Below are positions 20,843 to 33,765 of a stretch of 33,765 nucleotides of DNA, piece by piece. The stretch is taken from the NCBI GenBank assembly GCA_022925895.1, contig JAKSYS010000671.1:1-33765 (forward strand), given 5' to 3'. Each line of letters starts with the position of its first letter. Position 1 is the stretch's first letter. The stretch comes from Fragilaria crotonensis (Eukaryota; Bacillariophyta; Fragilariophyceae; Fragilariales; Fragilariaceae). The notes below the pieces were generated by a model. It searched no databases and had not been told where the DNA came from. It saw nothing but the letters and a program-made list of their open reading frames with translations. Position numbers and translations under genes: made by a program.

Positions 20843-20871
20843 CTACCACCTAAAAAGTGCCTGGAGCCGTT
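20843..20871 (+). repeat. Left terminal inverted repeat
   Basis: 29 bp, matching the reverse complement of 21416-21444 at 28 of 29 positions. Confidence 0.85.
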
Positions 20872-21415: not shown

Positions 21416-21444
21416 AACGGCTCCAGGCACTTTTTATGTGGTAG
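21416..21444 (-). repeat. Right terminal inverted repeat
   Basis: 29 bp, partner of 20843-20871. The single difference is T where the left copy predicts G. Confidence 0.85.
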
Positions 21445-23331
21445 TAGTGTAGTTTGCTATTTATTTTTTACTGTCCACCTGTGCTTCCGTCACGTCGAAG
21501 CAACGTTGTTCTTCATTAACTGTGACCTGCACCATCAATTATCTTCTGATTGAAGAAATCGGATTATCTTGTGATTGAAGAAACACCCGTGTGCAGCATT
21601 GATAGCTCTAATTAATGAGCATGAGCACAAGGAGTGATTGCACTCTCAACGCACGCGGGAAACCAAATCCTTCGACTTTAATCGTTTTTATGTAGCGTGC
21701 GCCGCACGGTTTTCGCAATGCACAACTTTCTTGGAGAAAATGAAGCTTCTGAAAAATGCATCCTGCTTTCATTGGCGTGATTCTTGGCTTAGCTGTTGCC
21801 TCCATTGCGATCCTTGATGGTGTGAGGTATGCCTGTATTTACTACTAGTACTACACAAACATGACGAAGATCGTCACCGATGTCCGAGATAGCTCCTGCG
21901 TTCTTTGGCACTCTTAGTGGGATCCTCCTCACTTTTGAAAATTCACTACAACATGAATTGAGGTCCTCTGAAACAGATGCTCTGCCTCGTAGAGACATCC
22001 ATGAATGGAAAGCAAGGCACCAAAGCTTCCTTCTTTGTCAACAGACAAGATTTCTCCGACTCTGGTTCCAGACCAACCTATCAAAATGACATCCCTTCAC
22101 ATGACACTTTCCTTGTTTGCATCTGGATCAGAGATGCAATCTTTTCCCCCAAGTTTCGCCATTTTGATCACCATCTAGGACGTTTCCCACCATTTCCCAA
22201 TATTCCGAATCATCAAAGTGTTAGGGCTTCTGTCTTGGCACTGTCGATAGTTGACTATGTTCCCTTCAATGTGAACGACCACAACACACCAGAATTGCTA
22301 ATCAATTGCGCGACATGATGACCGACTGATCAAAGAAAGCACCTCCTTGCTTTGTGAATATCCGTCCCAAGTGATAGACTCGAACGACAACGTCACCCCG
22401 GTACTTGTAGCTTTTGAAAGGACCTTAATGCTTAATGGCGTACTAGCTATAATCATGACAAAAATCAGTTGCAGAATTTTTCTTCTGGGTTCAGTGGTGA
22501 CGTGGTGACTGGTGGCAGGAACGCACAAACTGTCAACGATTCAGAACTCACCGTTGTTGAGAATTCCAAGTTCCAAATTCCGACGAGGTCATTGGTCATC
22601 GGATTCAAATACTGTATCGTAGTAATGTATTCAGTAGTGTTTGATACAGTACCAAATCGTAGTACTATTGTATGAATTGTGAGCTTATTGATTTGCTGAC
22701 TCCAAACAATCAATTCAAAGGTGAGTTCTCATTGAGACCTCCAACCAAATAATTCTCTGTAGCCTTTACACAATTTAAATCCCATTCAACACAAATGCAA
22801 TCCCACTAAATATAGGAACTTCAGCAATTCAATCCCACTGGTTGACACCTTCAACAAAAGTGACTTCAATATATCTTTATGTTTGGTTGGAACTGTAGTC
22901 CAACCAACATCATTGGCATCCTGTATTTCATGATCAACATAACAGGTAGCTCTGGCATTAGTACTGTCGTGCGTAGCTTACCGTGCTTCAGGTACAGTAG
23001 CACTCGACACCGTGTCAGTGCTGGCACAGTAGAGCTTGACAACTGTTGTTGATTTGAACTTCGACTGCAGTTTAGTCATGGTTGAGAGTTGAGAACTAGA
23101 TGTGTGCCGGCGATGTCTGAATGTACTCATCGTATAACTTACAAAAGTGGCTGTACTCCAGCATATTCAACATTGTAGTTTTTATATACAACAACAGCCA
23201 CCGTTTCAATATAGGCCGGACCTCCTGTTTTCGACAGGATCTATGACTTCGCGGCCGCCAAGGTATATATGTAGCGTGAAGTGTGTCGTGGTGTGTGCTA
23301 GTTGAGTGTTGTAGAGTGTGGATTCCATGGG
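21445..23331. other. Gene-poor stretch
   Basis: About 1.9 kb with no recognisable gene. A plus-strand frame at 21977-22318 (113 codons) has no domain I recognise. Short repeats include a direct repeat GATTGAAGAAA near 21549 and 21577, an inverted ACTGTATC/GATACAGT pair near 22611-22655, and three ATCCCA words between 22780 and 22850. It may be decayed mobile DNA. Confidence 0.4.
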
Positions 23332-23481
23332 AGAATGCAGTGAAATGACATCAGTCCTCATGACGTCACTCTACTGAGCCCTTAAGGTTCTCCCTACGGT
23401 CATACAGTACTCCAGTAAGACAGTAGTGGAAAGAGATCATGGTGATTGGTACTACAGCTTGACGTCATTTCACTGCATTCT
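23332..23481. repeat. 150-bp inverted-repeat element with TGACGTCA cores
   Basis: The outer 21 bp (23332-23352, begins AGAATGCAGTGAAATGAC) and 23461-23481 are reverse complements with one mismatch. Inside the left arm region, TGACGTCA occurs near 23360-23368, and again in the right arm near 23460. TGACGTCA is the palindromic cAMP-response-element word bound by bZIP factors. The unit may be a tiny hairpin transposon remnant or a paired regulatory site. Confidence 0.6.
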
Positions 23482-23967
23482 AATCGGATCCGTGAAGTAG
23501 TGTGTAGTGTGTACGGTAGTGTGTGGTCTGTAGTTACGTAGTTCTCCGATAGTGTGTAGTAACGTTGTGATCGGTGTTGGCGGTACTGTATGCATAGTGG
23601 CGCTGTACAATGCTGCCGCGCACGCCAACCTCTGGGGTGAGGTGCCCACCGTTGCTCGTGTACCGGGGTGACGCCTTAGAGCATGCCCACTCGTGGCACT
23701 ATTTTTTTGTGACCCTTTTCCGTATAGCGCCTTTAAAAGCTTATTCTGGATATTTCCGATGTGTCCAAGTGCCCTCCGATCCCCACCGGTGGCGCTATTT
23801 CACTTCGGTTTGGGATGAAAACGGGCGCGCGCCATACAATATTTGACTCGAGCAGTACAGTTCATGTACCATATGCAAATCATATACTCGCAGTTCATTC
23901 ATTCTTTCGTCTCTCGTCGTCATCTCCATTCTGGCTCCCTCGTCGCCAGCTTCGCCCCTTGGTCAAA
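23482..23967. other. Non-coding leader of the accessory block
   Basis: No supportable gene. Two related segments, CCCACTCGTGGCACTATTT near 23687 and CCCACCGGTGGCGCTATTT near 23784, form a diverged direct repeat about 97 bp apart. The region lies just upstream of the Myb/SANT-like gene and may include its promoter. Confidence 0.4.
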
Positions 23968-24584
23968 ATGGATATCATACCTCCAACTGCTGCTGTTGCT
24001 GCTGGGCGTGCAAGAGGCCAGCCAAACTTCAAGGTTGCAGAAGACGTGATGCTTGTTAAGGCGTATGTTGTCGTCACGACAAACGCCGCAATCGCCACCG
24101 ATCAGAATGGATCGATGTTTTGGGATAAGGTCCAACTCGGCTTCATCCAGCACGGTGGTGGTGCTGGACGCACTTCCGGCTCCCTCCCAGAACCGCTATA
24201 ACAAGACCATCCAAATGGAAGTCAACAAATTCATCGGTATGCTGACGAATACTCTCCGTGAAGATCATAGTGGATGGGCTCTTGAAGACTACACCCACGA
24301 TGCCAAGAGGAGGTTCCTTGCAAAGTTCCAGAAGCCGTTTAAGCATGAAATGTGCTACGGCGTCCTCAAGGCGGCACTTACGAAGTTTGCGATTGACAAG
24401 AACGGCCGCTGTTCATCCGCGTGTCCGGCGTGCAATTTTCTTTTGCGACGACGACAACGCACCGGCGCCTGATGCCAATGTCGATGTCAACATCAGAAGG
24501 TGGGATATGTTAACTATTTTTTTAAGCTTTGAATTGTTACCGGATAATGACATCCCTATCGCAAGTTCTTCACATGAATGTTAA
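23968..24584 (+). pseudogene. Myb/SANT-like (trihelix-type) protein fragment, gene A, frame-disrupted
   Basis: Starts MDIIPPTAAVAAGRARGQ. Residues about 20-65 (FKVAEDVMLVKAYVVVTTN, then DQNGSMFWDKVQLGF) fit a Myb/SANT-like DNA-binding domain of the kind common in transposon-encoded and trihelix-like proteins. The frame ends at RTSGSLPEPL, but the next frame immediately gives QNRYNKTIQMEVNKFIGML, followed by LREDHSGWALEDY and FLAKFQKPFKHEMCYGVL. This is the expected continuation of such proteins. One extra C in CTCCC near 24184-24188 accounts for the shift. A second shift near 24410 leads to FFCDDDNAPAPDANVDVNIRRWDML and a stop at 24584. It may be a decayed copy, or the indels may be assembly errors. 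Function of the family unknown; a DNA-binding partner of a mobile unit is inferred. Confidence 0.55.
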
Positions 24585-24923
24585 GTGGCTAACACATATG
24601 TTGTCTCAAACATATATTGTATCTTTTCACAATATAGATGCAATATTATATTCACTATGTGACACATATTGTTACATATCAAATAGTGTATCAACATATT
24701 TGTTTAAATTAAGTACTTATAAAGAATCACATATGGCGATATCATGCTATATCTTGAACATATATTTTGTCGAGTTACCATATATATTTGTTCTTTACGC
24801 ATTGCGGTGTTCTCATTTCAGCATACATTGTATCAACCTAGCCATTTGTTTTCATACAATTCACCATTTTAATGCGTTTAATGAACTATGGCTGCCAGCA
24901 GCAGCTGTCGCAATCACAAGCAA
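24585..24923. other. AT-rich spacer between convergent genes A and B'
   Basis: About 340 bp of AT-rich sequence with at least six ACATAT words, several in the form ACATATxTTG, between 24588 and 24785. The spacer 27914-28235 sits in the equivalent place before the second B gene. Confidence 0.5.
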
Positions 24924-26672
24924 CTACGACTCATTTTCGTCATCCGAGTCCCATGCTGCCTCCACAGGTACCTTTGCTACCGCTGTTTCCAATGCATTGT
25001 TGTCAGCACCAGTACCGTCGTGCTGTTCTTGCCGCTCATCGCCACGGGCATTCTTCAATCCTGCCCGTGTCCTGCAGAATGCCAGCAGCTCACGTTCCAT
25101 GTCTTTTGACTGCGGGCATGCCCTGTTCTCTTTAACCATTATGCGCAGTGCATTGAACTGTCTTATTCCGTCATTGCTCCACCCACCATACTTGCAGGTT
25201 CCTTTTTTCTTTTCAGTGTACTTTCCCTTGTCTCTTTGTTTTCTTCGTCGTCATATTCTGCCCATCATCTGCTTCCGTTGGGTTGTCTTTGTCAACCAAC
25301 TCCGTGCCGTTTTCCATTTTCCAAATAGTTGTCAATCAGCAACAATGCAAGCGCTTCGTCACTTGTTGTCACCATTTTCGAATTGTCGCTGTGCCGCGCC
25401 TCCGATACAAGCATTGTTTTCTTCGCGATTCTCCACGCATTTGCACCACATACACTCCAAGAAGTTATTGAAGAAGAAGAAGGCCCTTTTCTCCCTGTCT
25501 GATGTTGCTGTCCTAAGCACAGAATTCTTCAAACGTGAAGAAGTCTTCGCCGCGTGTTTTGAAATCCTTATTGATTGCGCCCCGAACAATTCTGAGACCA
25601 GCTTGTTCACACGTACTCCTTTTCTGGTTCAACGCTGTATTGAAACATTTCGTATGTCAACTGAAAAAGGAAATGATTTTTGGCTTTTGATTTCAAGCAC
25701 CTTTGAAACGCCCTTGAACATAACTGGACTGTTAACAAACTTACATCGACGGAACAACTCGTTTTTGACATATATCACAATTCGATTTCTCACGTGCTTC
25801 TCTTCTCGTGGCGGCGCATTGGACTCATCGTCATTGCATACATCGTGCTGAACATGCGTAGACGACACCTTCTTCTTCGCCGTTGGAGTATCATTGTCAT
25901 CTGGAGGATCCTCCGCGCCTTCCTGGGCACAGTGGTTCAACTCCTGACCAAGACGTCGTCTTGCATCCATTGCTGTTTTCCCGACATCCCTAACAAGAAA
26001 CTGATCCATTCTGCGAACAGAGTCGTCATCATCTGACATGTCATGTGTCACCACGTTGTTGTCATCACCCGCATTACTTTTCCCCTCATCCTCCCTGTCA
26101 TCATCTGATTCGGACTCTTCATCGTCAACCTCTTCAAACTCTTCATCGTCAACCTCTTCAACTGAGTAAGAGGAGTCATCTATTTCCTCAGGAGCGTTCC
26201 TTCTGCTCACCACCACCACCTTTTTTGGTGCCACTTTCCTCCTCTTCTTCTTACCACGAGGAGGGACAACACGTCGTTTGCGTCCCTTTGCAGTGATCTG
26301 CACTGGGTCTGGGTTAACTGCTGTCGCGATCTGCACTGGTGGGTCCGGGTTAACTGCAGTCGTCGATGCTTTAACAGATTTAGCTGCAGATTTAGCCGCA
26401 GATTTAGCCGCAGATTTAGCCGCAGATTTAGCCGCAGATTTAGCGGCAGATTTAGCCGCAGATTTAGCCGCAGATTTAGCCGCAGATTTAGCAGCTGCTT
26501 TAGCAGCTTTAACAGCTTCAGCCTTTTGCTGTTCCGCCATCTCATTCCTCTTGGCTCTTGTTGTCGGTGTTTCAAGTTCGGCGTTCTTTGTATTGTTCTT
26601 GGTCGCGCGTGGAGGCGTGGTCCGAGTAGCCACTGAAGGTTGCTTCGTTGGAGGTATAGTTTTCTTCGGCAT
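24924..26672 (-). pseudogene. Gene B', frame-disrupted paralogue of gene B
   Basis: Starts at 26672-26670 (MPKKTIPPTKQPSVATRTT). The N-terminal half is Lys/Ala-rich with ten tandem KSAA-type units, then Arg-rich (KGRKRRVVPP, KKKRRK), then acidic. The rest matches gene B block by block but jumps between frames. In order: RRCKFVNSPVMF; a CEQAGLRIV block; SDREKRAFFFF and FLECM; LVSEA; TTSDEALALLLIDNY; CKYGGWSNDGIRQFN; and MERELLAFCRTRAG ending VEAAWDSDD near 24924. At least five single-base shifts are needed, near 25665, 25630, 25515, 25450 and 25320, several beside A or T runs. Either this copy is a pseudogene or the local assembly is poor. The antisense frame spanning 24529-25851 is a by-product. 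Confidence 0.7.
26377..26496 (-). repeat. Ten 12-bp tandem repeats inside gene B'
   Basis: Plus-strand unit GATTTAGCCGCA repeated ten times (120 bp) with few substitutions. On the coding strand it encodes Ala-Ala-Lys-Ser units, giving a histone-H1-like Lys/Ala tail. Gene B has no such repeat in the matching place. Confidence 0.9.
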
Positions 26673-26777
26673 GAGGAATGAATCAAAATGTAAGAAGAAG
26701 CAAGCAAGGGTTAGAATAGCGGTCTCAGTGGTTGTATCAATTTGCAGCAAGTATGAGACGACTTGTAATTTTGGGTG

Positions 26778-27913
26778 ATGAATTCGTTGTTGTCCATGGC
26801 CGTTGTTCCGGAGGCGAGGAGTGCGTTCCGGCAAAGGTTCAGGACGGCGAGCGGGGTTGGGTGCAATGAATTCTTGTGTCGGACTCCGATCAGTGTCGTT
26901 GCCGAAGCTTTCGGATGTAAGCCGTTTCGACTGCGTTCGGCTGCCGACATGTTCCCGGACGAGTCTGGACTCCAGTCGGAGTTCCTCAACGAGTTTTACG
27001 TGATGGACGTGGTCCTCAACCGGGCTCCTTCGCCGGCCGCAGTATCAAACGGTTGTGGGAAGGCGGGGGAGTGTGGCGGTGTCCACTCTTCTGACGTCAA
27101 TTTTGATGAAGTTCGTCACGTCCTGTCCCGCAAACCAGAAGATGCTGGCCCTGCCATGGATTATTTCTACAGGACGGCGTAAGACCAGATGGAAGAACCA
27201 AGTTCCACGGTATGGCAGTGAAGCTTGGCCATGGTGTGGCCATCAGCTGGGATGGCAGAGTTGTCCGACACTGCACGTCTGTTTCCTGTCCGGATGGGAA
27301 GGAATTTGGGTTTGTGACCAGGGGGAGGGACTCTTCCTTCCGGAACCATCTTTACGGAACGTTCACGGCTGCAAAGGAGAAAATTGTGAAGGCTGGGCGG
27401 GCCTTGTGTGCTGCCGGTTACTGTCCCCCCGGGGCGCCCTCTCCGGCTGGCTCGAAGAGAGCTAGCAGGAAGCGACAAAAGAAGAGGGGGAGGAGACCCC
27501 GCCGGAGGGGCAGCCCTCGGGTTGAAGCCGGGGGTGCCGCGGCCACGGAGCCTGGTTGGCAAGCCGGCGGGTTGGCGTCTGCTGAGGCGGCTGTCGAGCT
27601 CCTGGACATCGGGCTGCCGCTGTGTTCGGAAGGTTCCGATGCCGTGCGGCGATTCCGTTCTGGCAAACGGGAACGTGATGTTGGTGATTCGCCGTCCCGT
27701 GCGGACGGGCGGGAGGACGGAGCCATTGGTGGCGGTGGTGGTGAGCTGCATTTTGGTTCTCGAAAACCAAACGTGGCGGTGAGTGCCGGAACACCCTGCG
27801 TGGGTGGACGGAAGGGAGATGGACGTTCAGCCGGTGACAGCATCAGAAGGTGCGAAATGTTTAGTCTTGTTTCACATGGTGAGACATACGTATATATGAC
27901 AACCGTTGGATAA
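26778..27913 (+). pseudogene. Gene C', internally deleted paralogue of gene C
   Basis: The first part (MNSLLSMAVVPEARSAFRQR, then PFRLRSAADMFP and NEFYVMDVVLNR, to DYFYRTA) matches C residues from about 68 (LLSMAVIPEERASF) onward. At 27180 it meets a stop. The next frame then resumes with RPDGRTKFHGMAVKLGHG, SWDGRVVRHCTSV and NHLYGTFTAAKEKIV, which match C residues about 604-668. So about 370 residues of C are missing, and the join is out of frame. The tail is strikingly GC-rich and Arg/Gly-rich (KRQKKRGRRPRRRG) and ends DSIRRCEMF. The H-x-D half of the putative metal site lies in the deleted part, so this copy should be inactive. It is divergent from B' with only 105 bp between the starts. 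Paralogy is clear; function unknown. Confidence 0.75.
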
Positions 27914-28235
27914 CTAATAAACAAATATTTTGATATCAACAAAAAATGTTTGATTGTCACACGTATGTATTTTTATATGACAATATGTACAACATATACT
28001 GTTGTAAACCACTGTCTTTGATTACTCATCACACTTTCAATAAACAAATTTGTTTAGTTTCACCACATATGTATGGTCGCTTCTCAAACTAATTGTTCAA
28101 CTAAGTATTCAGTACCCACCAAGTATATTCTTGTTTGAAAATTGAATTGTCATTCGCATTGCTACTTCTAACAACATGTATTGTTTCCGATAAGCCATTT
28201 ATTTTTACGAACGCCGCATGTTTTGACACCAGTTC
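27914..28235. other. AT-rich spacer between convergent genes C' and B
   Basis: 322 bp, AT-rich, with CATATAC, ACATATG and ATATGTAC words. It occupies the same position relative to gene B as 24585-24923 does to B'. Confidence 0.5.
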
Positions 28236-30095
28236 TCAGTCGTCTAAGTCCCATGCTGCTTCAACAGGTAATGCCTCTGTTGCATCCAATGCATTTCCAG
28301 CACCCTGTTCATGTTGCGTGTCACCATCATTGACAAATCCCGCCTGAGCCATGCAAAAAGCCAGTAATTCACTTTCCATAACTTGTGCATGTTCGCTTGC
28401 TCTGTCCTCATGTACAAGATGGTAGAATTCATTGAAGCGCCTGGTTCCTTCACGGCTCCACCCACCATACTTGCAATGTCCACTTTTATTTGCCGTGTAC
28501 TTTCCCATGAGTCTTTCTTGTCCCTTCTTCTTCCTCCTCTTCCTTGACCTTTCGTTTTCCGCTCCCGTATTGTTATCTTCGCCGTCATTATCTGCAAGTG
28601 ACTCGGCATCCGCATCCCTTTCCATTGTTGTTTCTGTATCCGCAGCCCTCGTCAGTGAAGTCGACCACTTATCAATATAATTATCAATCAACAACAAACC
28701 AAAGGCTTCATCGCTTTTGGTGACAAGTTTGCGACCATCATCAGCTGCATCTGATACCAACATCAAGACCTTTGCCTTTCTCCAGTACCGTGCTCCACAC
28801 ACGCATTCCAAGAACGAGTCAAAGAACCAGAAGAATGCCCTTCGCTCCCTATCTGTTGTGGCTCTCCTGAGCTTACAGATTTCATCAATCGTAAAAAACT
28901 GTTCACCACGTTCTCTGAACTCAGTAAGGGTCCTCCTGACAATTTTTTTACCCGCTTGCTCACATGAACTCCTCTTTGTGTTCAAAGCATCATTGAAAGC
29001 ACTTTCATACAGCATCTGAAACCTTAAATGCTGGTGTCGTGGTACATTTTCGAAATCAATAACCAATTGAAATGCCTTTTGGAACATAGCATCACTGTTT
29101 ATGAATTTAATGCGGCGAAAGACCTCTGTTTTGACAAACTGTGTAATTCGAGTTGCAACATGTTTCTGTCGTTTTTTCACCGATTCCGTCTTCGACATGC
29201 CTCGAACCGAAATGTCACCGCCAATCTTCAGAAGCGACGCCTGGGTATATTTGTTTGGTGAATTTGACGTACCTTTCTGCTGTGAACTACTGTTCAACAC
29301 CTCACGTTCATCTGCAGCAGGTACATGTGTGGCCGCCCTGGCATTGCCCCGTGTGAATATCTCCATGCTGCTGTCATCTGATCCAGCAGATGACAAGTCT
29401 GAAGCATGTTTGTCGTTACCACCAGCATCGTTGTTGGGCGCCCCCTTGTCACCATCCTCGTCAGTGATGGATTCCTGTGCAGCATCCTCATTGTTGTCCT
29501 GCTCCTCATCATTGTCATCATTGTCCTCCTCATCATTGTCGTCATCCTTCTCCTCATCATCGTCATCAGCATCCTCATCGTCATCCTCGTCATTGTCCAT
29601 ATTTTTGTCATCCTCATACTCGGAATCATCATCATCGTCTACTTTCCTTGGTAAAGTTACAATAGTAACATTCGTTTCCGATGGTTTCGTCTTCCTCCTG
29701 ACAACACCAACACGTTTCCTCGTCTTATTCACCTCGACTGGGGGGGCGACAACCTCAGGCGTTTTCACCGGTTCCTCACTTGATTCTGGTGGTGCTTTTC
29801 TCTTGCCACCACCTGTACGTCGTGTCTTCTTTTGCGCAACGGTGTTGTCGACGCCAACGTCGACATCCCTGACATTTGGCTGCCCTCCGTTTTCAGCAGC
29901 TTGTGGTGGGGCGACCTCTGGCGTCTTCACAGGTTTGAGGGCGACTTTATCTTTTACAGCAGTTGTTGCACGAACCTGTTTTTCCTTGTTTCCCTTCCCA
30001 TTCTTCACGTTTGTTTTCAGAAGCTGCGGTGTCCTTTCCACTCTCTTGGGTGGTGGTTTGCGAGGTGAAGTCCGAGTTGCTGTGGCACCGCTCAT
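28236..30095 (-). CDS. Gene B, repeat-unit protein with basic/acidic tail and conserved C-terminal core
   Basis: Intact 619-residue protein; I do not recognise a named family. Residues 1-150 are basic and Pro/Thr-rich (SPRKPPPKR), with PVKTPEV repeated at 55-61 and 109-115. Residues 153-210 are almost pure Asp/Glu/Asn. Residues 310-480 form the conserved core shared with B': VFRRIKFINSDAMF, CEQAGKKIVRR, DRERRAFFWFFDSFLECV and VTKSDEAFGLLLIDNYIDKW. After an Arg/Lys block (RSRKRRKKKG, likely nuclear signal) comes a second core at 530-580: GKYT, CKYGGWSREGTRRFNEFYHL and MESELLAFCMAQAG. The C-terminus is VEAAWDLDD. The composition suggests a nuclear, chromatin- or nucleic-acid-associated protein. 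No transposase catalytic triad is evident. I believe similar uncharacterised multicopy proteins occur in other diatoms (recalled, not checked). Confidence 0.75.
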   Translation of the reverse strand: MSGATATRTSPRKPPPKRVERTPQLLKTNVKNGKGNKEKQVRATTAVKDKVALKPVKTPEVAPPQAAENGGQPNVRDVDVGVDNTVAQKKTRRTGGGKRKAPPESSEEPVKTPEVVAPPVEVNKTRKRVGVVRRKTKPSETNVTIVTLPRKVDDDDDSEYEDDKNMDNDEDDDEDADDDDEEKDDDNDEEDNDDNDEEQDNNEDAAQESITDEDGDKGAPNNDAGGNDKHASDLSSAGSDDSSMEIFTRGNARAATHVPAADEREVLNSSSQQKGTSNSPNKYTQASLLKIGGDISVRGMSKTESVKKRQKHVATRITQFVKTEVFRRIKFINSDAMFQKAFQLVIDFENVPRHQHLRFQMLYESAFNDALNTKRSSCEQAGKKIVRRTLTEFRERGEQFFTIDEICKLRRATTDRERRAFFWFFDSFLECVCGARYWRKAKVLMLVSDAADDGRKLVTKSDEAFGLLLIDNYIDKWSTSLTRAADTETTMERDADAESLADNDGEDNNTGAENERSRKRRKKKGQERLMGKYTANKSGHCKYGGWSREGTRRFNEFYHLVHEDRASEHAQVMESELLAFCMAQAGFVNDGDTQHEQGAGNALDATEALPVEAAWDLDD

Positions 30096-31010
30096 ACTAT
30101 GGAATGCAACAATGTTGTGATGGATGATAACACAAGAAGTGGTAGTCTTGTTTGAAGATTGTGTTTCGTGAATTTATTGTACTCGCATTGTGGTGGTGTT
30201 TCTACGCAAATTTGTTGACAACTCAGTGTTATTGAATGCGGGTGTACTTTTTGAATGGCATGAAGCAACGTTTGTATTCCATCATGTATACTTACATTTG
30301 ACGTCATACCAACATGTGTTGCGTTTGAATGTACATTTTTTGTCTCTTCTGAACACCTGCAGGCAAATGTTTGATGCCCTTCTATGTATATGTACATTGA
30401 GAAACAGTCAAACGTTGAGTACAGGTTTTGCTGCCCTGACCGACTCTCAGTCGTGTTGCAGTACTACTACCTTCCATTGCATGTACTTGTACTAGTGGGA
30501 TCAACGCAGCTTTGCTTGGTAGTAAATGTACGTACAACCTACTGGTAGAGGTCTAATTTTGCAAGAATTCGCGGGGATGTCAGTATATATATTAAAATTC
30601 ATCAAAATATACATAACTGGAATGGTCGTATGTGGTGAATGAAATTTGATGTACATAGGTAGTGCACGCAATCGACAAAAGATTAATTATGCCATCCTAC
30701 TACGTACAAGGTAGTACAATTGATGTGTCCCACTTTCATTGCAAATCATACTCATATACATGGATTGTTAGTACAACATAAAGGGTAAATATACTATCCA
30801 AGAATTGTGATTATGTACACACATGATGTCTATGTTGCCCGATACGGTTCGTATGCAAACTCAACTTAAGATTTCCCTTAAGTAATTGGGTCCCAATTTT
30901 AGTACATATTATACGCTAGATGCAGCGTAGAAATAATTCCGTCTAGACTACTTCTGTGCATTCTGCAAACCAAAATATTGCAACTTGCTTCTTTCATGTC
31001 TTCGCAAGTC
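30096..31010. other. Non-coding stretch between divergent genes B and C
   Basis: About 0.9 kb with no supportable gene. It is AT-rich with ATATATATAT near 30584 and GTAC words near 30480-30545. An inverted CTTAAG pair lies at 30866-30883. It contains the promoter of B and probably distal elements for C. The equivalent gap between B' and C' is only 105 bp. Confidence 0.45.
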
Positions 31011-31322
31011 CTTATCGTCATTGCCGTCGGATCGTTCTCGCAGAATCGATAGCCAAAGGTCGCTCCCCAGCCAGAAAGCGGGTTGAGTGATCGTTGTGTT
31101 GTCAACTTTGTGCTCGCATCGCCCTTCGTGGTGGTTGTGAGGTTCTGAAAAGGCATTTTGCAACCTTCAGCTGTCCAACAGTAATCATCGTCGCCGTCAG
31201 ATTATCCTCGCGGAATCAATAGCCAAAGGTCGTTCCCCAGCCAGAAAGCGGGTTGAGTGATCGTTGTGTTGTCGATTTTGTGCTCGCATTGCCCTTCGTG
31301 GTTGTTGTGAGGTTCTGGAAGA
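31011..31322 (+). repeat. Direct duplication, 170-bp period, upstream of gene C
   Basis: Positions 31011-31152 and 31181-31322 are diverged direct copies offset by 170 bp. Within them, long blocks such as CCAGCCAGAAAGCGGGTTGA and the 12 bases after it are identical. The second copy ends about 40 bp before the C start codon. This is a tandem promoter/leader duplication. Confidence 0.85.
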
Positions 31323-31363
31323 GACGTCGCGCGGCCTGTTTCCTGTCAGACGTTGATGGTAGT

Positions 31364-33676
31364 ATGAAGCCTAATCGACGTGGTGACTACGGGGTGCTGG
31401 CTGGGACTGGGAGCATCATAACATCTCCCTGCACAACGTCGGTTGCAAATCTGGGGAGAACGGCGAGAGTTTCTGAGTCCTTTATTGTTGACAAGGAGGA
31501 AGATGCTAAGAAACAACTTCCCTCCAATCGGGATGAACGCAATAGTTACCCAACGCACCGGCGATTGGTGGCATTGTTGTCGATGGCGGTTATTCCTGAG
31601 GAGAGGGCTTCTTTTTGTGAACGCTTTTGGGAGGCGAAGGGGGAGTACCAGATGGGAGGGCGCCGTAGGACCGCTGCAAAGCTATGGAGGGGACATCGGA
31701 CCGTTCCAAACCTTTGCAACACTCCAATCAGTTGGATTGCGAAGGCGTTCGAATGCGAGCCGTTCCGGCTGCGCTCGGCGTGTGACATGTTTCCATGCGC
31801 TGGGACGGAGTCCGCATACATGAACGAATTCTACGTAATGGATGTAATTTTAAACCGGTCTTGTTTGCCACCTGCTTCTGAGGTTAAGAAGGATGGCGGG
31901 CCTACCCCCATTGACCCTGATGTTGTTCGTCCGTTCAGATGTTATGAACCGGATGATTTAAATCCCGAGAAGGATTACTTATTCAGGTCTGCGATCCTGT
32001 TCCTACCTCAGTGTGGCGTCTTCTACTGCCACAGGGAGCGTCGCAGGGGAGACGTCGGTGTGCCGGGTACATTCATTGCCCACGACATGAGCTGGCTCCG
32101 TCTGCAGAGAAATATAGAGAGGAGGGTTGATGGTGTTGTTGAGGTGTCTTATGACTTCGGCAGTGATAGCTTCGTTAAGTGTTTCTTTGCCGAAAGGAAG
32201 GGGCCTCGTTTCCATGTTGAGGACCACTACATATCTGCCTGGAGAATCTCTACTGGGAAGTTGTCCCGCACGAACCTCCAGAATCGTGTGATGTACAGGG
32301 CCATTCAGTGCCGTGACACTGACGGTCCCATGTTGGCACCGGATATCCTGGATGGGGTGGAGTTTCCGGGCTGCCCTCGGGATTATCTTGCAGCAGACTA
32401 CACACGTCGTCTTGCCGTGGCCAACAGCGCCAGGAAAGATGGGCGCCACTATGTCCCTGGATGTCTCCATTATCAGCTGCCTTTATCCTGTTGGATAATC
32501 GATCCGACGGTGACTCATTGTGTTGACATCATGGTCGATGTTGACAGGGTTGGTGGAACACTGAACCGTCAGTCCGTTGTCATGATTCGTAACGTTCGGG
32601 AGATTGAAGCTGACGATGACCTTATCGGCTCACTGCGCAGTGTTACTGCCCACAACGTCGTGCTTCGGACGCACGCAAGAAAGGGGACTGCGAGGGCCAG
32701 GGGTGGCGACGTTGGAACAATGCACGCAATCGGCACGCACGTCGAACTCGATAGGACCACCACGAACCCATACATGGCGAACGGAAGGGTTCCCGAGGGT
32801 CTCCTCCGGCAACTGGTTGTTAACCTCGCTATCATTGGGAGTAACTGCTTTCCGCAGGTGTATGCTGTGCTAAGGGATACGGAGGGGGATTCTGGTCTCC
32901 TTCCAATTGAGCCAATGAATGGCGAAACGGAGGTAAATCCTGTCGGACTTCCTGGTGTTGACAGGAAAATGAATGGGGAGAAGGAGAAGAAGGTGGGTCG
33001 CCGAGTTGGATACACCATCGACATGAGCGTCGACCTTGCAAATTCTTCGCATTTGGATGTGCACGATGCCTCTCAGGGCTTCAGTGTGTGGTCCGAAGAG
33101 TTCCCTGGCCGTGCCACAAACTGGTTCTTCGTCCTCCCAAACCTTCATGGGCAGAGACCTGACAGGACAACCTTCCGCGGCGTGGCTGTGAAGCTTTCCC
33201 ATGGCATTGCCATCAGTTGGGATGGGCGTGTTGTACGACACTGCACTTCAGTTTCCCATCCAGATGGGGTGGATGGTGGGAGGCTTGGTGGAGTGGGTGC
33301 CGCACAGTTGGAAAACCATCTGTATGGAACATTCACCGCTGCTAAGGAGCGAATTGTGCAGGCGGGACGAGCAGTGTCTGCTGCAAACTATGTCCCTTCC
33401 GATGTGCTGCCTTCTGATGATGACTCTGATGCAGGGCAGAAAGTTAAGAGGAAGAGGTGCCGAAAAAAGAGAAGGAGGGGTAAACGAGTGCACACAGGGG
33501 TTGTTTGCGGTGATGCCACGGCTTCGGATGATACGGGTGCTGGAGGTGATCCACTGGGAATTGATTGTGAGGAATCAATTCTATCACGAGTGATGCCGGT
33601 GGCTGCTGCAAATGATCACACCCCAGGGGTGACTGGTGTTCCTGCTACCCTACGGATGGATTCTTTGAATCCGTGA
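31364..33676 (+). CDS. Gene C, repeat-unit protein with possible double-stranded beta-helix (H-x-D...H) domain
   Basis: Intact from the first in-frame ATG at 31364 (MKPNRRGDYG) to 33676, 770 residues. An open stretch upstream to 31253 has only a TTG and lies in the repeated leader. Residues 68-165 (LLSMAVIPEERASF, PFRLRSACDMFP, NEFYVMDVILNR) are shared with C'. The middle is unrecognised, with FYCHRERRRG, WRISTGKLSRTN and YVPGCLHYQLPLSCW. Residues about 550-670 are the best-conserved part: DLANSSHLDVHDASQGFSVW, a PG then NWFFVLPN, VAVKLSHGIAISWDGRVV, RHCTSV and NHLYGTFTAAKERIV. The spacing of H563-x-D565 and H626 fits the metal facial triad of Fe(II)/2-oxoglutarate oxygenases, though I cannot name a subfamily. 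A nuclear-type Lys/Arg run follows (KVKRKRCRKKRRRGKR). The C-terminus may instead lie in the next frame, ending near 33762. Confidence 0.72.
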   Translation: MKPNRRGDYGVLAGTGSIITSPCTTSVANLGRTARVSESFIVDKEEDAKKQLPSNRDERNSYPTHRRLVALLSMAVIPEERASFCERFWEAKGEYQMGGRRRTAAKLWRGHRTVPNLCNTPISWIAKAFECEPFRLRSACDMFPCAGTESAYMNEFYVMDVILNRSCLPPASEVKKDGGPTPIDPDVVRPFRCYEPDDLNPEKDYLFRSAILFLPQCGVFYCHRERRRGDVGVPGTFIAHDMSWLRLQRNIERRVDGVVEVSYDFGSDSFVKCFFAERKGPRFHVEDHYISAWRISTGKLSRTNLQNRVMYRAIQCRDTDGPMLAPDILDGVEFPGCPRDYLAADYTRRLAVANSARKDGRHYVPGCLHYQLPLSCWIIDPTVTHCVDIMVDVDRVGGTLNRQSVVMIRNVREIEADDDLIGSLRSVTAHNVVLRTHARKGTARARGGDVGTMHAIGTHVELDRTTTNPYMANGRVPEGLLRQLVVNLAIIGSNCFPQVYAVLRDTEGDSGLLPIEPMNGETEVNPVGLPGVDRKMNGEKEKKVGRRVGYTIDMSVDLANSSHLDVHDASQGFSVWSEEFPGRATNWFFVLPNLHGQRPDRTTFRGVAVKLSHGIAISWDGRVVRHCTSVSHPDGVDGGRLGGVGAAQLENHLYGTFTAAKERIVQAGRAVSAANYVPSDVLPSDDDSDAGQKVKRKRCRKKRRRGKRVHTGVVCGDATASDDTGAGGDPLGIDCEESILSRVMPVAAANDHTPGVTGVPATLRMDSLNP

Positions 33677-33765
33677 GGCCAATGGCAGCTGCAGTGTTTA
33701 CTGATTGCAGTCGGACCATGGATCCGATGGACTACAGGATACCGAGGAAGCGGAGGTGGTGAGTG
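33677..33765 (+). other. Tail of gene C, window edge
   Basis: After the stop at 33676 another frame stays open through about 33762 and ends in RIPRKRRW. It could be the true C-terminus of C if one base is missing near 33650-33665, or just 3' UTR. The window ends here. Confidence 0.3.

Follow-up and report, generated by a model that had tools for sequence, protein, structure and literature searches.

The window analysed here is the entire 33,765-bp contig C637 (JAKSYS010000671.1) of the diatom Fragilaria crotonensis, from a genome assembly (GCA_022925895.1) of 62.1 Mb in 881 contigs. Labels such as C30, C85 and C87 denote contigs of this assembly and are distinct from gene C. One light-harvesting protein encoded in the assembly points to a diatom: its best PDB matches are chains named FCPI-7 (6ly5, 297 bits) and Lhcr11 (6l4u, 294 bits), entries from a Chaetoceros diatom, and the next match listed has 215 bits. 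Another light-harvesting protein is not discriminating, as its four best matches, the only ones at E 1e-30 or better, are LHCI chains of 9vfj. The right part of the window contains two pairs of divergently arranged genes, B'–C' and B–C. The second pair is intact, as the initial annotation had stated: B (28236–30095, minus strand) and C (31364–33676, plus strand) are both open, over 619 residues and over 770 residues from the start chosen in that annotation, respectively. In the first pair, B' (24939–25808, minus strand) is a decayed relative of B, with 32% identity over 340 columns in tblastn (E 1e-37), and C' (26784–27838, plus strand), delimited from tblastn pieces and an open translation, is a relative of C with an internal deletion. 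The C' pieces at 26784–27179 and 27176–27427 match C residues 70–210 and 596–678, respectively, and residues 211–595 are missing between them. The two pairs also conform to the earlier proposal that a decayed copy lies next to one that looks alive.

The terminus CATCAGAAGGT is found twice in the window, at 24491 and at 27841. The first occurrence (CATCAGAAGGTGGG, preceded by AA) is the left end of an older copy, element 1, whose left part (24491–27840, plus strand) is interrupted by a second copy; its terminal homology to the copies on C30 and C85 covers 66 bp at 77%. The second occurrence (CATCAGAAGGTGCGAAATG, preceded by AG) begins the younger copy, element 2 (27841–33765, plus strand), which is homologous to copies on C30, C85 and C474 and is ended by the contig end. 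Since the C' reading frame stays open to 27838, up to the terminus at 27841, element 2 starts inside C' of element 1. The region therefore consists of a large DNA transposon in two copies, with the younger nested in the older, and not of the tandemly repeated two-gene unit that had been suggested. The AT-rich spacer followed by the 3' end of a B gene, noted earlier as a recurring pattern, is present, but in both elements it represents the left terminal region.

That two related B–C units less than 10 kb apart share their order and orientation could also be explained by segmental duplication, in tandem, of a host locus carrying B and C, or by an assembly artefact. This explanation is very improbable: transposon termini are found at both left edges, B' at 32% identity is too diverged from B for a local copy error, and many copies elsewhere share the same ends. 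Tandem duplication in particular is ruled out by the C' frame, which is open up to the second terminus.

Searches of the assembly yielded at least 88 matches to B and at least 75 to C; 71 of 300 candidates were scored for B and 58 of 531 for C, and the match counts are lower bounds. The C matches were merged into at least 58 places, and neighbours were scored within 9 kb. B is found near 31 of the 58 C places and lies 5' of C on the opposite strand, as in the window, in all of these but one (on C22). The mobile, multicopy character and the fixed divergent order proposed for B and C are thus borne out, as is the multicopy pattern expected of the assembly. Copy number and termini rule out plain host genes, and copy number and linkage exclude, within this genome, that B and C are single-copy, unlinked host genes.

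Eleven stretches with both B and C were fetched and seven of them were extended. Near-identical pairs of copies lose their match at common left edges, and mostly at common right edges too. The full element has the order B (minus), C (plus), D (minus), with a third gene, D, converging on C. Seven large copies measure 9,183–10,221 bp, and the copy on C474, from which most of D and part of C have been lost, measures 5,089 bp. The element ends are CATCAGAA...TTCTGATG, with the inverted termini CATCA...TGATG, which are present in all 8 large and all 3 short copies (described below) with both ends read. Identical 2-bp duplications flank all 11 copies with both flanks read (8 large, 3 short); those of the large copies are GA, GA, TG, TA, TG, TA, TA and TA. 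One large copy interrupts a (GGTTCAT)n array of 97 copies (L013 1627–2304 and the right flank on C87), and its position in this array makes the TG duplication cleanly readable against the repeat. For the terminus word CATCAGAAGGTGC, the genome contains 60 occurrences, compared with one for the reversed control. The alignment of loci suggested earlier for finding boundaries has thus yielded termini and duplications, in the copies elsewhere.

Five short copies of 2.5–2.7 kb also have paired ends. They are L052 (C235), L053 (C55), L054 (C215), C134:67118–69604 and C525:17457–20168; the three that were fetched have TG, CG and TC on both sides. Their CATCAGAAGG termini are the same as those of the large copies, blastn against the full copies gives only about 66 bp of terminal homology, and internal repeats of roughly 170 bp are present. 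No long open frame was found in the copy inspected. These short elements are probably non-autonomous riders of the transposase encoded by D.

D lies on the opposite strand, to the right of C, in the large copies and is intact over 1,155 residues on C529. No transposase appears in the window because the contig stops at 33765, before the D genes and the right ends of both elements. The initial annotation had attributed the lack of a known transposase to the system itself, but copies elsewhere carry a Plavaka transposase beyond C. D of C529 matches PF18759 (Plavaka) with an E-value of 1.1e-7 and 31.8 bits (cut-off 26.3), and a genome scan with this profile gave 80 matches, 76 of them marked as over the cut-off. 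Residues D327, D466, C488/C491, H733/H737 and E757 are kept in the copies on C87, C8, C30 and C85, and in that on C157 where it is covered. Plavaka hits (D or PF18759) are found near 24 of the 58 C places, always on the 3' side (24/24) and mostly on the opposite strand (22/24).

In the excerpted text of a recent study of fungal elements (Kojima 2025, PMC12730594), the motifs D, D, C(2)C, H(3-4)H and E are given for Plavaka and its relatives (CMCT transposases), and PlavakaB is characterised by CATCA..TGATG termini and duplications of 2–3 bp. Since the PF18759 match, the motifs, the termini and the 2-bp duplications all fit published PlavakaB, the element was assigned as PlavakaB-like. At the level of sequence, it agrees with PlavakaB in every feature examined, namely transposase family, motifs, termini and duplications.

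An origin of the element from an endogenous DNA virus would be in keeping with its large size and its several genes without an assigned function. Such an origin is exceedingly improbable, given the transposon termini and the Plavaka transposase; moreover, no relatives of B or C were found in 2.9 million viral contigs, in searches with single-protein queries that reach close relatives only. No C relatives were found in prokaryote genome contigs.

A second, distant Plavaka-type transposase is present on C137 (L040, L042), with 23% identity to D (E 3e-27). It is broken and is without the first cysteine of the motif. An intact-looking C frame of 808 codons adjoins it, and a different, glutamine-rich minus-strand frame occupies the expected position of B.

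The B protein consists of a basic/acidic N-terminal half and a conserved C-terminal half. A Pfam scan of B gave no match above the cut-off, and an RNase E match to its acidic part was judged to be due to chance. The ratio of nonsynonymous to synonymous substitution rates (dN/dS) for B is 0.31 and 0.36 for the copies on C157 and C87, respectively, compared with C529. A role of B in DNA binding or as a helper of transposition is probable, although this assignment is weak.

Gene C is also found in a second transposon superfamily. A C place at 156 kb of C87 has no B match and adjoins a Mutator-type transposase and a Ulp1 protease domain. This Mutator-like element (MULE) spans C87:151771–159325 and is bounded by terminal inverted repeats of 483 bp that are 98.6% identical. 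Its transposase and Ulp1 region (L030 149–3421, equivalent to C87:152348–155620) lies 5' of C on the opposite strand and matches PF10551 (37.1 bits, cut-off 27.6), SWIM and Peptidase_C48 (Ulp1), with a DBD_Tnp_Mut match below the cut-off. The flanks of this copy, TAGATTAAT and TAGATTAAA, agree at 8 of 9 bases when read by eye. In a MULE copy on C131, most of the left repeat has been lost and the transposase and Ulp1 domains are in a single frame.

MULE hits are found within 9 kb of 12 of the 58 C places, compared with about 1.7 expected by chance (simple arithmetic from 91 MULE hits in 62 Mb). In nine of these the MULE is at the 5' side of C, on the opposite strand and within 3.7 kb; the remaining three are on C592 (3' side) and C873 (two places, about 7 kb away). 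In an unrooted tree of 20 C sequences, which gives no direction of transfer, the nine MULE-borne C genes form one clade (support 100). This clade joins the C137/C76 lineage (support 100), and the other Plavaka-borne C genes (6 sequences) fall outside the group. The MULE clade and the Plavaka copies in this tree indicate that C has been acquired by more than one DNA-transposon superfamily.

Two C homologues differ from these arrangements. On C592 (L043, L033), a C homologue that belongs to another clade faces a MULE-type transposase (PF10551, 47.5 bits) in convergent orientation. In the C homologue at C34:84100–87200 (L034), the H-x-D block described below is preceded by an insertion, a long repeat of Asp, Asn and Tyr; hits to B, Plavaka and MULE are all absent from the 9 kb around it.

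Selection on C could be estimated for few pairs, as most others are saturated at synonymous sites. The pair C87b and C22 gives a dN of 0.182 and a dS of 1.215 (dN/dS 0.15), although dS values above 1 are imprecise, and for D the pair C529 and C87 gives a dN/dS of 0.138. The few near-identical pairs have dN/dS values of 0.29–0.61, based on very few changes. In the measurable pairs, C is under purifying selection about as strong as that on the transposase.

C might instead be a former host gene, with a host role unrelated to silencing, that was captured separately by Plavaka and MULE elements and is now a passenger. The absence of direction in the unrooted tree leaves room for this, as do 12 of the 58 C places, around which neither B nor a Plavaka or MULE hit is present within 9 kb. 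A mere passenger would not be expected to keep, between transposon copies, a dN/dS of about 0.15 that equals the low value of the transposase; furthermore, none of the places was shown to be a single-copy host gene, although none was specifically searched for. A captured host gene is therefore considered improbable.

The most conserved part of C lies near its C-terminus. H563, D565, R622, R625 and H626 are invariant in all 10 aligned C proteins and H613 is conserved in 9 of them; the consensus of the block is GNASHFDVHDASQG...NWYFV.PN...ISWDGRV.RHCTS. An H-x-D motif followed by a histidine some 50–70 residues on constitutes the iron triad of 2-oxoglutarate dioxygenases. Residues ~540–680 of C (32981–33403, plus strand) are accordingly proposed as a candidate 2-oxoglutarate/Fe(II) dioxygenase-like domain. 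Searches of C against Tet_JBP (PF12851), 2OG-FeII_Oxy_6 (PF20515) and solved TET structures gave no match (Pfam scans and PDB profile searches). Classification of C as TET/JBP by sequence was rejected, as no Pfam, PDB, PHROG or NCBIfam match supports it. Weak hits to SPT6_acidic, FAM186A-B_C, PDB GP1 (E 0.1), LydB and others were judged to be due to chance.

In fungi, PlavakaB elements carry TET/JBP dioxygenases, every TET-containing fungal Plavaka being a PlavakaB; TET/JBP genes have moved between DNA-transposon superfamilies, and a role against methylation-based silencing has been proposed for those on transposons (PMC12730594, excerpted text). In the F. crotonensis assembly, PF00145 (DNA methyltransferase) has 13 matches, some of which are pieces of one gene. 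Together, the H-x-D...H motif, the TET/JBP genes of fungal PlavakaB, their transfer and the 13 methyltransferase matches lead us to infer an oxidising, anti-silencing role for C. The carriage of C by unrelated kinds of transposon likewise suggests that it aids survival of the element in the host, perhaps by undoing DNA silencing. In the proposed mechanism, the C product would serve its own element, keeping it expressed in a DNA-methylating host. The most likely route would be through the C-terminal domain, as a divergent 2-oxoglutarate/Fe(II) dioxygenase that would oxidise a modified base in the element DNA and so counter silencing. By analogy, C probably works like TET/JBP, even though it is not filed with them. 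Our favoured reading, that the window contains nested PlavakaB-like elements in which C is an anti-silencing accessory, most likely acting through a candidate base-oxidising dioxygenase domain, is considered reasonably likely as a whole. With slightly less than even confidence, C may represent a so far undescribed family of dioxygenases that are carried by transposons, modify DNA and escape recognition by sequence; in this diatom, Plavaka and MULE elements would have exchanged it as a portable means against silencing, a parallel to TET/JBP in fungi.

Several observations weigh against this reading. For the two window copies themselves, only the left ends can be read (2 of 2 with the expected terminus), and D, the right ends and the target-site duplications lie out of view beyond the contig end. 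Among the copies elsewhere, the partial D of C87 alone scores 23.3 against PF18759, under the cut-off, and D of C341 departs from the motif pattern in two of six blocks. Of the 58 C places, 12 are without a B, Plavaka or MULE neighbour. On the MULE side, the target duplication is imperfect (8 of 9 bases) and was seen in one copy only. For the dioxygenase domain, the second iron histidine is ambiguous, since H613 is replaced by Asn in 1 of 10 proteins and H626 is invariant, and no arginine is evident as a ligand of 2-oxoglutarate. Pfam scans of 10 and 9 members of the C family, and PDB, PHROG and NCBIfam comparisons, provided no support for C, and genome scans with PF12851 and PF20515 were empty, with controls that were weak (Tet_JBP, weakly in E. 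coli) or silent. Single-sequence AlphaFold2 models of C are of low confidence (predicted local distance difference test scores of 29.8 and 33.2).

The lack of an enzyme profile or fold, together with the basic C-terminal tails in several C copies, would also suit a C that is not a base-acting enzyme. In the same Plavaka element, C would then be a DNA-binding anti-silencer or a transposition co-factor usable by several transposases. This alternative is the most serious rival, though unlikely, as the most conserved block of C is the one that holds the invariant H-x-D...H, and a sequence-specific DNA binder would not be expected in two superfamilies with different termini.

Other features of the window concern the B–C unit and its left flank. 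The B–C spacer of element 2 contains a direct repeat (31014–31320) with copies at 31014–31150 and 31184–31320 that are 89% identical, probably part of a divergent B–C promoter region. At the corresponding spot, arrays of 176, 142 and 109 bp are found in L011, L016 and L020, respectively, and none was found in the fetched copy L013. A C-terminal tail motif, Y-R/K-I-P-K/R-K-R-R in other copies, is located at 33733–33763, just past the stop codon of C and in another frame; judging from this out-of-frame tail, C of element 2 may end early.

The Myb/SANT-like gene A (~23675–24469), described earlier as the leading gene of the unit, matches a different set of repeat copies: a 99% copy over 420 bp is found on C48, and its 3' half has many 69–72% copies on other contigs. 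By these matches, A belongs to a separate repeat and not to the B–C unit. Element 1 starts some 20 bp past the end of the A homology and may have inserted into the A repeat. Further to the left, a stretch of ~170 bp (23320–23495) has some 30 matches elsewhere at 79–89% and a short inverted end, and is perhaps a small non-autonomous element. The arms of a 29-bp inverted repeat (20843–20871 and 21416–21444), 97% complementary and 544 bp apart, could possibly delimit a small transposon.

In its proposed role only, C can be compared with VANC of the plant Vandal MULEs, a protein that relieves the element encoding it from silencing, as C would do. VANC acts on sequence-specific targets, whereas C is common to elements with unrelated termini; no similarity between the two was found in the tests made. 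Plant MULEs can carry Ulp1, and the second carrier of C resembles such elements in its PF10551, SWIM and Peptidase_C48 domains, its long inverted repeats and its duplication of about 9 bp. It differs from them in holding C beside the transposase.

What is new here is a PlavakaB-type element in a diatom genome, with B and C as cargo and with C common to a MULE. Among the top-ranked open-access papers, none was found that reports Plavaka in diatoms, or diatom transposons with genes that are TET-like or otherwise act against silencing, and the excerpted text of PMC6431247, on giant transposons, mentions neither a dioxygenase nor a diatom. Compared with fungal PlavakaB (Kojima 2025, PMC12730594, excerpted text), the element resides in a diatom instead of a fungus, C cannot be recognised as TET/JBP and shows H-x-D in place of the H-x-E of the PE type borne by fungal Plavaka, and the divergent partner B has no counterpart described there. 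The diatom element shares with fungal PlavakaB its transposase family, the D-D-C(2)C-H(3)H-E motifs, the CATCA..TGATG termini and the 2-bp duplications, and, with those that contain TET, an accessory gene, here the candidate dioxygenase C. Plavaka with accessory cargo would thus be extended from fungi to a diatom host. C differs from fungal TET/JBP in that no sequence-profile similarity was found, and MULE is absent from the carriers named in the abstract of PMC12730594. Like the PU, AG and PE types of fungal TET/JBP, it is one gene in several DNA-transposon superfamilies of one genome, and it has a candidate H-x-D...H iron site. Its presence in two unrelated superfamilies, with conservation like that of the transposase in the measured pairs, is the profile expected of a portable anti-silencing gene. 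If the proposed role is correct, diatom transposons would wage the same epigenetic arms race as their fungal counterparts, with an enzyme that was separately recruited or has diverged.

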